Under the pieces are notes generated by a model, which saw nothing but the letters and a program-made list of their open reading frames with translations, was not told the DNA's origin and ran no database searches. Position numbers and translations under genes: made by a program. A stretch of DNA of 42,141 bases from Hyphococcus sp. (GTDB lineage: Bacteria; Pseudomonadota; Alphaproteobacteria; Caulobacterales; Parvularculaceae). Positions within the stretch are counted from its first letter, which is position 1; the number at the start of each line of letters is the position of its first letter. The stretch lies in NCBI GenBank assembly GCA_021776245.1, contig JAJFGF010000034.1, positions 1-42,141 of the forward strand. The letters are read 5' to 3'. Shown in pieces: positions 27,812-31,421 of this stretch.

Positions 27812-28918
27812 ATGATTAAGCGACGGCAGCTGTTAACCGGCGGCGCGGCGGGACTTGCAGCGGGGTGCGATTGCGGCGTGCCGGCCGGCATCGACGGCGT
27901 CGCGAGCGCCATCCAGTCCCGCGAGCTGAAAATGGTCACCACCTGGCCGAAGGATTTTCCCGGCCTTGGCACGATGGCGGAACGTACAGCCCAGTTCATT
28001 ACGGAAATGTCCGGCGGCGCCATGCGCGTCCGCGTCTTTGCGGCGGGCGAACTCGTGAGCGCATTTGAGAGCTTTGACGCGGTCTCAAACGGCGCTGCCG
28101 ATCTTTATCATGGCGCTGAATATTATTGGGTCGGCAAATCTCCGGCTTTCGCGTTTTTCACCGCTGTGCCGTTCGGCATGACTGCGCCGGAAATCATGGC
28201 ATGGACAGAATTTGGCGGCGGCCAGGAATTGTGGGACGAACTTTCCGCCGGTTTTAACATAAAACCTTTTGCCGCCGGCAATACCGGCCATCAGCTTGCC
28301 GGCTGGTATAAAAAAGAGATCAAGAGCCTTCAAGATATGCGAGGCTTGAAAATCCGCATGCCGGGCCTCGGCGGCGAAGTCTTGCGCCGGATTGGCGCTT
28401 CTGCTGTCGCGCTGTCAGGCGGCGAAATCTACCAGGCGCTGCAATCGGGCGCGATAGACGCCACCGAATGGGTGGGCCCGTGGAACGATCTTGCTTTCGG
28501 CTTTTATCGCGAAGCGAAATATTATTACTGGCCAGGCATCCACGAACCGGGCGCGCAACTTGGCGTCGGCGTCAATCTCAGCCTGTGGGAAGGGATGACG
28601 CTGCAGGAAAAATCAATCATTAAAGGCGCCTGTCACCGGGCAAATCATTTGTCCATCGCCGAATATGTTCACCATAACGCCACTGCGCTCGATCAGCTCG
28701 TCAATAACCATGGCGTTGAATTACGCCAGATGCCGGACGACGTTATGGCGGCGCTGGCGCGGGAATCCAAAAATGTCCTCGAAGAAACCGCAGAGACAGA
28801 TGATCTCACGGCGCGCGTTTTTGAAAGCTATAAAAAATCGCTTGAACGTTCCATGGCCTGGAGCCGGATCTCCGACGAGGCGTTTATGAATAAGCGCCGC
28901 GAAGTGTTTGCGCTGTGA
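27812..28918 (+). CDS. dctP: TRAP transporter substrate-binding protein (DctP/TakP-like), Tat-type lipoprotein
   Basis: The product has 368 residues. The leader KRRQLLTGGAAGLAAGC19 combines a twin-arginine motif with a lipobox. The body matches the TakP subgroup for 2-oxo or hydroxy acids: MVTTWPKDFPGLG, AEYYWVGKSPAF, the ligand-binding Arg in KIRMPGLGG, and the ATEWVGPWND block. It captures an organic acid in the periplasm and delivers it to the DctQM membrane unit. Its stop overlaps the dctQ GTG by four bases, so all three transporter genes are coupled. Confidence 0.93.
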   Translation: MIKRRQLLTGGAAGLAAGCDCGVPAGIDGVASAIQSRELKMVTTWPKDFPGLGTMAERTAQFITEMSGGAMRVRVFAAGELVSAFESFDAVSNGAADLYHGAEYYWVGKSPAFAFFTAVPFGMTAPEIMAWTEFGGGQELWDELSAGFNIKPFAAGNTGHQLAGWYKKEIKSLQDMRGLKIRMPGLGGEVLRRIGASAVALSGGEIYQALQSGAIDATEWVGPWNDLAFGFYREAKYYYWPGIHEPGAQLGVGVNLSLWEGMTLQEKSIIKGACHRANHLSIAEYVHHNATALDQLVNNHGVELRQMPDDVMAALARESKNVLEETAETDDLTARVFESYKKSLERSMAWSRISDEAFMNKRREVFAL

Positions 28919-29799
28919 CGATGCTGTCACTTGCCGGTAATATCCTGAACTGGATTGCCGCGGGTGTTCTTTTCCCGCTGATGCTCTTGCCCTTGGCGGC
29001 GCTTCTAGAGCATTTCCGAGCGAAGTGGGAATCGGTTCGCGTGAAGGAAATGCGACCAAACAATAACTTAAAGCCGGTCCGCGATTCAGTTAAGATCGGA
29101 ACGGCTCTAGCACACAGCAAGTATTCAGCGTTGATCTGGTTTTCGACCGTCGCGGCTGTTGTTCTCGCGGGCGTTCTCTTTGCCACGCTTGCGCCGATCC
29201 TCTCGGTGACGCCGTCAATGACGCAGGCCGGAATCTTCATTGTGATCGTGATCATCATCAGCGCTTTAATTTTCACAAGCGGCGGCGCCGGACCTCTCAT
29301 CGCCAGGTTGTCGCCGATAATCGAGAAACTCGTCAGCGCTTCGGCCCAGGCTGTGATGTGGCTGTTGCTCGCGATGGCGCTTATTCAATTTGGCATTGTG
29401 GTTTTGCGTTATGTCTTCGGCATCAATTATATCTTCATGCAGGAATCGATCACTTACATGCATGGCGCGGTATTCCTGCTGGCTGCGGGTTACGCGCTCC
29501 TGACCGACGATCATGTGCGCGTCGATATTTTCTATCGCGAGGCGCCGGCGAAGCGCAAAGCGCTGATTGATCTTCTCGGGACCTATCTTCTGTTGTTTCC
29601 CGTTTGCCTTTTATTGCTGTGGACCGCATCGCCCTATGTCGCAAATTCCTGGGCGGTGGGCGAAAGCTCCGCAGAAGCCTCAGGCATCGCCGGCGTGTTC
29701 ATTTTGAAATCGTTTATCCCCGCTTTTGCTGTGCTGCTGGCGATGGCGGGCTTTAACATCGCGGCGCGCGCCGGCGACGTGTTGCGAGGGCGCAGCTGA
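28915..29799 (+). CDS. dctQ: TRAP transporter small permease (DctQ) with an extra N-terminal membrane region
   Basis: The product has 294 residues; DctQ proteins are usually ~160-200. The core DctQ domain begins near residue 128 (EKLVSASAQAVMWLLLAMAL) with four membrane segments, including VVLRYVFGINYIFMQE and the HVRVDIFY motif. The first ~125 residues add about three membrane segments. Residues 32-65 (EHFRAKW...KIGTAL) are not membrane-like and are encoded by a 106-bp palindromic repeat. The start is GTG at 28915 (GTGA overlap with dctP); an ATG two codons on is possible. Together with dctM it forms the sodium-coupled membrane unit. The frame is open throughout, so the repeat does not break the gene. 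Confidence 0.88.
   Translation: MTMLSLAGNILNWIAAGVLFPLMLLPLAALLEHFRAKWESVRVKEMRPNNNLKPVRDSVKIGTALAHSKYSALIWFSTVAAVVLAGVLFATLAPILSVTPSMTQAGIFIVIVIIISALIFTSGGAGPLIARLSPIIEKLVSASAQAVMWLLLAMALIQFGIVVLRYVFGINYIFMQESITYMHGAVFLLAAGYALLTDDHVRVDIFYREAPAKRKALIDLLGTYLLLFPVCLLLLWTASPYVANSWAVGESSAEASGIAGVFILKSFIPAFAVLLAMAGFNIAARAGDVLRGRS
29005..29110. repeat. Palindromic repeat element (CTAGAGC...GCTCTAG) inserted in frame in dctQ
   Basis: The 106-bp unit is bounded by CTAGAGC (29005-29011) and GCTCTAG (29104-29110). It holds two hairpins: GCATTTCC (29010-29017)/GGAAATGC (29046-29053), with inner GCGAA/TTCGC; and AGCCG (29072-29076)/CGGCT (29102-29106), with inner TCCG/CGGA. I recognise the type from memory as a dispersed intergenic repeat of Rhizobiales-like genomes. 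If CTAG is a duplicated 4-bp target, the net gain is 102 bp, exactly 34 codons, which keeps dctQ in frame. Confidence 0.75.
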
Positions 29800-31421
29800 T
29801 GGACATCGCGATCGGCGACGCTACTTTCTGCCTCTGCGCCTTTGCCGGCTGGCTCGATATTGCGATGGTTCTTGTGCTGTGCGCACTCCTCATGGCGGGC
29901 TATCCCGTGGCGTTCAGCCTCGCTGGCACAGCGCTGCTCTTTGCGGTTCTCGGCATGACTTTCGGTGTTTTTGACATCAGCTATTTGCGGCCATTTCCCC
30001 AGCGCATATTCGGCGCGGCGACAAACACAACATTAATCGCTGTACCGATGTTCATCCTGATGGGGGTAATCCTTGAAAAATCAAAGATTGCCGAAGAACT
30101 GCTGGAGGCGATGGCGAAACTCTTCGGCAGTTTGCGCGGCGGGCTTGGACTTTCGGTCACCATCGTCGGAGCACTTTTGGCCGCCTCGACCGGCATTGTC
30201 GGTGCAACAGTCGTCACCATGGGATTGCTCAGCCTGCCGACCATGTTGCGGCGCGGTTATGACCCGGCGTTTGCATCCGGCTCTATCGCCGCCGCCGGTA
30301 CGCTGGGCCAGATCATCCCTCCATCGATCGTCCTGATCCTGCTCGGCGATGTGATTTCCAACGCCTATCAAAAGACGCAACTGGAACAGGGCGTGTTCGC
30401 GCCAGAAACCGTATCGGTCGGCGATCTTTTTGCCGGCGCGCTGATTCCCGGCCTCATGCTGGTGGGTCTTTATATCGTCTGGCAAATAATTGTCGCCGTC
30501 ACGCAGCCGCATAAGGCGCCGGCGATACCCGCCGCTGAAATGGGCAATCGCCGCGACGTCTGGATTGCCGCGCTGAAGGTTTTGCCGCCGCCATTGCTCC
30601 TCATCATCGCCGTGCTTGGGTCCATTCTGGCGGGCATTGCAACGCCGACCGAAGCCGCCAGCGTCGGCGCCATCGGCGCACTTTTTATTGCAGGCGCACG
30701 CATGGCGCCGAAAGGATCCTTGTTGGCCGGGCGGCCCGCGATATTTGCCGCCGCTGCTTCAATCATCGGTCTGATGCTGCTCACCGCCTTTCTGGATTTG
30801 CGATTGGGCCGCGACAATATTGCGCTCATCGAAACAGCAGGGATCGCAATCGCATTCTTATTGTTTGCGCTAACGCCCTGGGGTATCATCGCGAGCCTGG
30901 CGCAATTGCGCCGTGAGAAAACCCTTGCTCCGATCCTCGACCAAACGGCGCGCGTTACGACAATGGTCTTTACGATCCTGATTGGCGCAGCTTTGTTTTC
31001 ACTCGTCTTCAGAGGTCTCGGCGGCGACGACACAGTGCGCACAGCGCTTGCGGCTGCGCCCGGCGGCAAGGTCGGCGCAGTCATCACGGTCATGCTGGTG
31101 ATGTTTGTCCTCGGCTTTTTTCTCGACTTTATCGAGATCACCCTCGTCGTCGTCCCGTTGGTGGGCCCACCCCTCCTCGCTCTCGGTCTTGACCCGGTCT
31201 GGCTTGGCGTGATGATGGCGATTAACCTGCAGACATCTTTTTTAACCCCGCCTTTCGGCTTCGCGCTGTTCTATTTGCGCGGCGTCGCGCCGCCGGAAGT
31301 TTCCACCGGACAAATCTATCGCGGCGCCATTCCGTTCATTGCCATCCAATTGCTGGCGCTGGGTCTGTTGGCGGCGTTTCCGCAATTAGCAACATGGCTG
31401 CCGGGGGTTTTGTACCAGTAG
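29799..31421 (+). CDS. dctM: TRAP transporter large permease (DctM)
   Basis: The product has 540 residues, longer than the usual ~430 because of a hydrophobic insertion around residues 300-370, as seen in the 2-oxoacid/mannitol-type subgroup. The signature blocks are FPQRIFGAATNTTLIAVPMF, AASTGIVGATVVTMGLLSLP, GSIAAAGTLGQIIPPSIVLI, and near the end DFIEITLVVVPLVGP and FLTPPFGFALFYLRG. It is the sodium-driven elevator-type transport subunit. Its ATG overlaps the dctQ stop (TGATG). It is the last gene of the operon and converges with the phosphoesterase gene 29 bp away. Confidence 0.94.
   Translation: MDIAIGDATFCLCAFAGWLDIAMVLVLCALLMAGYPVAFSLAGTALLFAVLGMTFGVFDISYLRPFPQRIFGAATNTTLIAVPMFILMGVILEKSKIAEELLEAMAKLFGSLRGGLGLSVTIVGALLAASTGIVGATVVTMGLLSLPTMLRRGYDPAFASGSIAAAGTLGQIIPPSIVLILLGDVISNAYQKTQLEQGVFAPETVSVGDLFAGALIPGLMLVGLYIVWQIIVAVTQPHKAPAIPAAEMGNRRDVWIAALKVLPPPLLLIIAVLGSILAGIATPTEAASVGAIGALFIAGARMAPKGSLLAGRPAIFAAAASIIGLMLLTAFLDLRLGRDNIALIETAGIAIAFLLFALTPWGIIASLAQLRREKTLAPILDQTARVTTMVFTILIGAALFSLVFRGLGGDDTVRTALAAAPGGKVGAVITVMLVMFVLGFFLDFIEITLVVVPLVGPPLLALGLDPVWLGVMMAINLQTSFLTPPFGFALFYLRGVAPPEVSTGQIYRGAIPFIAIQLLALGLLAAFPQLATWLPGVLYQ

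Follow-up and report, generated by a model that had tools for sequence, protein, structure and literature searches.

An in-frame insertion of a likely CIR-type palindromic repeat element in dctQ of Hyphococcus sp., with further cases in the family Parvularculaceae

How can a gene for a membrane protein take up a complete, hairpin-forming repeat and still be read from start to stop? The question is raised by dctQ of Hyphococcus sp., investigated here in a window of 42,141 nucleotides (the whole stretch of DNA analysed), which is contig 28 of a 4.14 Mb genome (76 contigs, 100% complete). The gene encodes the small membrane subunit of a TRAP transporter (28915..29799, + strand), as identified from its open reading frame, its match to PF04290 and its orthologues. 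It is located between dctP for the solute-binding protein (27812..28918, + strand; PF03480) upstream and dctM for the large membrane subunit (29799..31421, + strand; PF06808) downstream, in an operon that by Pfam is intact around the insert. From a GTG start at 28915 the gene gives a product of 294 aa, 34 of them belonging to the insert, with the PF04290 DctQ domain at residues 154–280 (E 3.4e-15), and the frame is open throughout the element. Taken as a whole, the locus is best explained by a non-autonomous CIR-type mobile element that inserted in dctQ at a CTAG, duplicated these 4 bp and was tolerated; the probability of this reading was set at roughly 85%.

The full-length element of 106 bp covers 29005..29110 on the + strand. 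Its termini, CTAGAGC and GCTCTAG, are terminal inverted repeats with CTAG at both ends (29005..29008 and 29107..29110), each a presumed copy of the target site. Folded as single-stranded DNA, the unit formed two hairpins at −21.5 kcal/mol (z −4.1), and none of 200 shuffled sequences folded as well. Hairpin A (GCATTTCC...GGAAATGC) occupies 29010..29053 and is joined through a linker (29054..29071) to hairpin B at 29072..29106, which in the fold of the genome consensus reached from 29069 to 29109. A first-pass annotation had described the 106-bp unit, its ends, the two internal hairpins and the open dctQ frame, all of which were confirmed by sequence, fold and ORF. At the apex of hairpin B, a GATTC (29083..29087) corresponding to the methylation motif GANTC lay in the loop when the dctQ copy was folded as DNA, and was partly paired when the consensus was folded as RNA. 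It was present at the same place in all of 17 well-kept copies. Among the 30 full-length copies, GANTC was found in 22, namely 13 of 16 in the own genome and 9 of 14 in G024, another genome of the genus, and the misses were diverged copies. A C to T difference of the dctQ copy created an extra GAATC in hairpin A (29029..29033), which in the 17 copies compared was found only here and in one copy of G024 (L061).

The consensus is open in only two of six frames, + frame 0 and − frame 2, and a net length divisible by three is therefore not enough by itself to make the element readable. Of the full-length copies, 20/30 were open in + frame 0 and 23/30 in − frame 2. The peptide inserted in DctQ is read without a stop as L-EHFRAKWESVRVKEMRPNNNLKPVRDSVKIGTA and is basic, with 8 K/R and 4 D/E in 35 residues.

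A BLAST search of the own genome (E ≤ 10) gave 39 pieces, which were reduced to 27 places (E ≤ 3.1e-5) by joining the pieces of split copies and leaving out a few weaker places at chance level. Eleven of these, the dctQ copy included, were at least 94% identical. The unit is thus a dispersed repeat; an absence of other genomic copies, which would have refuted the first-pass reading, is not the case. Matches at E ≤ 1e-5 occurred in 10 of 28 genomes of the genus, the own genome counted, and more distant copies were present on plasmids of Bradyrhizobium, Sinorhizobium, Xanthobacter and Methylobacterium (10 records). These plasmid copies, together with a CIR-like anatomy, substantiate the kinship to intergenic repeats of the Rhizobiales type that had been proposed in the first-pass annotation. 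By a codon-usage gene model and comparison with relatives, two of the 27 own places were inside genes in frame, in dctQ and in a gene for a TPR protein. The 24 matches of G024 correspond to 23 places, of which 21 were examined and yielded one clear in-gene case, in a gene for a TonB-dependent receptor, and one ambiguous one. Copies within genes are rare exceptions, and most copies are intergenic. The ambiguous copy (L082, G024:C168) is crossed in full length by a P-type ATPase-like frame that ends 25 nt past it, and the element may supply the C-terminus. Two copies of G024 (L089, ~2195–2339; L096, ~1913–2035) carried a second repeat-like sequence (GGGTCCTTCGAGG... and GGGCCCTTCGACAGG..., respectively) nested in hairpin A at the same point, and three broken copies (L017, L022 and L024) abutted another repeat with GTTGAAAGC...GCTTTCAAC, which suggests nested or mosaic elements.

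Orthologues of dctQ were searched in 60 genomes and the best 30 loci were fetched, giving 29 relatives, all of the same family. The 34 residues, which the first-pass annotation had proposed to look for in such an alignment, were found in none of the 29; 28 of them aligned on both sides of the insertion site, and one (L060) was without the loop region. A second alignment comprised 35 of 67 named loci (all 28 of L153–L180 and 7 more distant ones), and here the insert was absent in 26 of 26 family-group loci covering the site. The two counts are not independent, since they include partly the same assemblies. The closest named DctQ loci were from Marinicaulis, currently listed under Hyphococcus, and from Parvularculaceae assemblies, which places the genome in the Parvularculaceae. 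In the nearest orthologue, that of Marinicaulis sp. OFTM294, the gene has 780 nt against 882 nt for dctQ, a difference of exactly 102. When 102 bp were removed (29005..29106, + strand; 34 codons, residues 31–64) and one CTAG was kept, the two aligned without gaps at 77% amino acid identity, in full agreement with the net insert that had been deduced by collapsing one CTAG. The dctQ copy differed from the genome consensus in 3 of 106 bases, one of the differences being common to other own copies and another to a copy of G024; two of the dctQ-copy differences were absent from the 11 other own copies compared, and both change an amino acid. The earlier suggestion of a recent in-frame insertion is supported by the insert-free orthologues, by the existence of a repeat family and by the closeness to the consensus.

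In the orthologues the insertion site is a short loop, often basic and varying in sequence and length. An AlphaFold model of DctQ (pLDDT 80, pTM 0.78) predicted that the insert continues the first helical hairpin, with a helix at 25–46, a turn at 47–55 and a helix at 56–92. Mean pLDDT over residues 31–40, 41–50, 51–60 and 61–70 was 91, 82, 67 and 73, a dip in the middle of the insert, and the insert region of the model was covered by no aligned row. Alignment and model agree in placing the insert between the first two membrane helices, where a loop between membrane segments had been anticipated. That there is an insertion, that it is a repeat and that it lies in a loop is firm, the loop position being shown by the alignment and predicted by the model. 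The DctQ proteins of this family have a long N-terminal membrane extension of about 120 residues without the insert (28915–29370 of the window).

The insertion could have inactivated or weakened DctQ, with a frame that is open only because the event is young. The two differences absent from the other own copies fit a young copy, and as the copy is young, the absence of stops in it says little. A dN/dS of 0.14 relative to the nearest orthologue (dN 0.157, dS 1.145) is no proof of present DctQ function either, since it mostly reflects the time before the insertion. Damage to the protein is nevertheless unlikely given that the site is a variable loop, that residues invariant in the alignment are kept, that the model retains the helices and that the operon has remained intact.

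The insert might instead have been recruited for a positive role, for example by giving the transporter an additional element in the cytoplasm or at the membrane surface. It is basic, the loop that holds it is frequently basic in relatives, and it is predicted to be helical. Against this, only one of the 30 genomes aligned has the insert, and among the 11 other own copies the differences from the consensus, counted by codon position 1/2/3 in the element frame, were 10/14/2, the opposite of what constraint on the protein would give. Constraint on the element at the peptide level was accordingly rejected, the third codon position changing least; the split gives no sign of selection on the inserted peptide, and recruitment appears quite improbable. 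Of the earlier alternative "tolerated or recruited", the first half holds and the second found no evidence: the insert looks recent and tolerated, not recruited.

A very improbable third reading takes the open frame as accidental, with an intergenic element and a dctQ that starts downstream of it. It could draw on the Pfam DctQ domain, which begins only at residue 154, and on seven aligned Halomonas-type homologues, whose matched parts begin only near residue 120–144, past the N-terminal extension. Yet the 26 named family-group loci covering this stretch recognisably share the 30 residues that precede the element (MLxLxGDILNWxAAGVxFPLMxLPLAAL), which there pass directly into the next helix, and the match to the nearest orthologue sets in at the same residue. 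The element therefore has the conserved first membrane helix on one side and the second on the other and does not precede dctQ; this conserved N-terminus on its far side refutes the accidental frame. An assembly artefact joining two loci at the repeat, conceivable for a short, repeated unit in a genome of 76 contigs, deserves next to no credence, since the flanks are two halves of one gene, in frame and between dctP and dctM, as no chance join would give, and three other genes show the same kind of insertion.

The reading of a tolerated insertion of a mobile element is extended by these three genes, which encode the malonyl-CoA synthetase MatB of G031 (another genus of the same family), the TonB-dependent receptor of G024 and the TPR protein of the own genome. 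In MatB, the element interrupts the AMP-binding C-terminal domain, so that PF13193 was matched only to position 37 of 76. Against the solved enzyme 4fuq, MatB aligned on both sides of the element, with 52 residues of the query and 15 of the chain in between; the net gain suggested by this comparison is about 37 residues, and is not fixed to 34 by relatives. None of the 28 relatives covering the site (29 aligned) had the insert. In the TonB-dependent receptor, the element splits the leader, which without the 34 residues measures 26 residues, as in the 81% identical protein of G017, and the insert was found in 0 of 11 relatives. The leader of the TPR protein (contig 32) is also split by the element, here read on the other strand; once the 34 residues are subtracted, 43 remain up to the first conserved Cys, the same number as in the 64% identical protein of G006, and the insert peptide was in none of the eight N-termini of relatives that were read. 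The TPR case is the weakest of the four, because only G006 is close enough for a comparison of lengths. Each of the four insertions is read in one or other of the open frames, and three share a frame. Where a close relative allowed the comparison, which it did three times, the net length was exactly 102, or 106 − 4. The phenomenon is wider than the first-pass annotation saw, comprising four genes, and is well supported by relatives; it also brings a testable stop-codon target rule.

Candidates in other families of the order were taken from long open frames around element-like peptides, 20 stretches being chosen among the matches listed. None was a convincing insertion, and of 16 frames submitted to Pfam, 14 were without a domain in frame. 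In the frames of a fumarase and an EamA transporter, the best domain stretch was downstream of the element, and these were not counted as insertions. Judged by eye, the element lies before the real start in a RelA/SpoT-like gene of G021 (L084), a methyltransferase gene of G019 (L063/L101, half element), a GspH-like frame (L102, half element) and one further frame (L095). In the GspH-like case (G021:C8:531892) the half element, consisting of hairpin A only, is in frame directly before the prepilin-like N-terminus.

The full-length copies were examined for their relation to gene ends. Into 30 full-length copies (16 own, 14 in G024), 36 gene 3′ ends pointed within 300 bp, and 13 of them stopped at the element edge, 12 at the identical base and one a base off, with TAG in 11 cases and TAA in two. 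At three copies (L006, L009 and L070) both neighbouring genes end at an element edge, one at each, the left gene of L070 being a weak call of 84 aa. Truncation by the element would likewise put a stop at the edge in one of three phases, and natural ends therefore needed testing. For two of the 13, a comparison with relatives was made, and both proved natural: BtuR, which stops at the edge of one copy (L002), aligned to the last residue of solved homologues, and a neighbour of L009 has the same end position as its relatives in all 11 loci fetched, which carry TAA, TGA or TAG at that place. A Xanthobacter copy also has the annotated end of a gene in its edge.

Edge sequences were compared in 37 rows, in which L013 repeats L006: the left edge was CTAG or TTAG in 25 and the right edge CTAG in 19, and several copies had unlike edges, such as TTAG...CTAG and CCAG...CTGG. 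CTAG is depleted in the window, where 10 were found against 158 expected from base composition, two of the ten being the element's own ends. TTAG (20 against 115 expected) and CTAA (37 against 122) are also low in the window. Of the ends of the 38 genes modelled there, one was CTAG, one CTAA and three TTAG. At the aligned dctQ site, none of the 29 relatives has CTAG; the nearest reads TTTT, and one has CTAG further downstream. The target duplication that had been assumed for CTAG is favoured by the net 102 bp and by the gene stops at element edges, but not by the relatives at the dctQ site nor by the unlike edges of several copies, and a duplicated CTAG-like target of 4 bp is supported indirectly, not proven.

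The events behind the dctQ allele may be depicted as follows. A palindromic element of the CIR type, probably mobilised by a transposase acting in trans, would have entered dctQ at a CTAG and left a second copy of these 4 bp; the 106-bp unit minus the 4-bp duplication leaves a net 102 bp, and the frame is therefore kept. The element would have landed in an orientation and phase that are read without a stop, and its peptide would have come to lie in the short loop that follows membrane helix 1 of the N-terminal extension, forming the predicted helix-turn-helix that lengthens two membrane helices, in a DctQ that presumably still functions. In copies at stop codons, a duplicated CTAG would preserve the stop of the gene, and the dctQ copy would be one of the rare tolerated insertions in a gene interior.

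CIR repeats reportedly go back to Chen and Shapiro in 2003. As characterised in the relevant parts of the account by Delihas (PMC2229807), they are Caulobacter CcrM-associated intergenic repeats, present in many copies of ~110 bp, in which a linker joins two inverted-repeat arms; one arm carries GANTC at its loop or partly within it, and the termini have TA. According to the same account, genes are free of them and each of the six frames contains several stops. Strict confinement to intergenic DNA is also what a 2024 review ascribes to them in its passage on these repeats (PMC10969869). The present element is similar in length (106 bp), in its two arms and linker, in being multi-copy, mostly intergenic and alphaproteobacterial, in the GANTC that the copies conserve in the loop region of one arm, and in the TA at both termini within the CTAG edges, though not in every copy. 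It differs in that two of 27 own places are inside genes in frame, with four in-gene insertions overall, and in that two consensus frames are open as against stops in all six. Membership in CIR is likely by anatomy, CIR1–CIR4 having been compared by description only.

The RPE of Rickettsia are, in the sections of two papers that treat them, palindromic, 105–146 bp long and inserted in frame in unrelated conserved genes (PMC2229807, PMC10969869), nearly half of them being in genes (PMC10969869). The present element shares with them the in-frame insertion in four unrelated genes whose relatives are without the insert. Likened to them by description, it differs in belonging to Parvularculaceae and not to Rickettsia, and in having two of 27 own places, not nearly half, in genes. 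By analogy, it would work like an RPE, through in-frame fusion at tolerant places.

The RIME of rhizobia reportedly go back to Osteras in 1995, and RIME and the Bru-RS of Brucella have lengths of about 103–108 bp. Compared by description, the element resembles both as a multi-copy palindromic repeat of Alphaproteobacteria, and element-related copies are present on plasmids of Sinorhizobium and Bradyrhizobium. The Brucella sRNA family BASRCI27 of Rfam matched it weakly (E 0.042; 21.6 bits against a cut-off of 59.8). The portion of the literature on RIME and Bru-RS that was consulted makes no mention of in-frame gene insertions (PMC2573895), and no report of CIR, RIME or Bru-RS insertions inside genes was found among titles and abstract openings of the open-access literature. 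For ERIC and the 107-bp Correia element, in-frame gene fusions are reported in the part of Delihas that deals with them (PMC2229807). The present element, compared by description, is like these small non-autonomous elements in having open frames fused to genes, and unlike them in its host, theirs being enterobacteria and Neisseria.

Rickettsia is the best-known host of in-frame palindromic insertions, and CIR are described as intergenic only in the pertinent passages of the two reviews cited above. The four insertions, backed by insert-free relatives, show that a repeat of CIR build can enlarge proteins outside Rickettsia, and they add to a known phenomenon a kind of repeat that had been said to keep out of genes. 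We incline, at somewhat better than even odds, to the general view that the CIR-type repeats of Parvularculaceae are protein-coding palindromes like the RPEs of Rickettsia: a 106-bp unit that duplicates a CTAG-like 4-bp target, adds exactly 34 codons net, has one open frame per orientation and has repeatedly inserted into genes in frame, the frame being kept by its net length of 102 bp, with the stop codon itself as the favoured target. If so, insertion at CTAG, TTAG or CTAA stops would duplicate the stop, both of two convergent genes would keep their exact ends, and a mobile element would have a way to enter gene-dense DNA without harm. Gene stops exactly at element edges provide a testable explanation for the way in which such elements select their sites and spare them.

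Among the matches to two transposase families in the own genome (five to DDE_Tnp_1 and one to Y1), none had ends matching those of the element. An insertion sequence with ends CCTAAGGTCTGTGG (L284) was rejected as parent, its ends being unlike those of the element, and outside its inverted repeats only weak matches of 14–15 nt to the element occurred nearby (E 0.06–0.25). This insertion sequence (G000:C50), of the DDE type and with ends GGTCTGTGGACAAT, has CTAA on one flank and TTAG on the other, which resembles the presumed target of the element. The RAYT-type Y1 transposase (L288) was rejected as source, being flanked by unrelated palindromes of its own. This single Y1 match (G000:C2, ~1364–2271) has on its flanks a near-perfect inverted repeat of 31 nt starting GTAGGGTGCATT, and two more perfect palindromes of 22–23 nt are located near it, a separate REP-type system.
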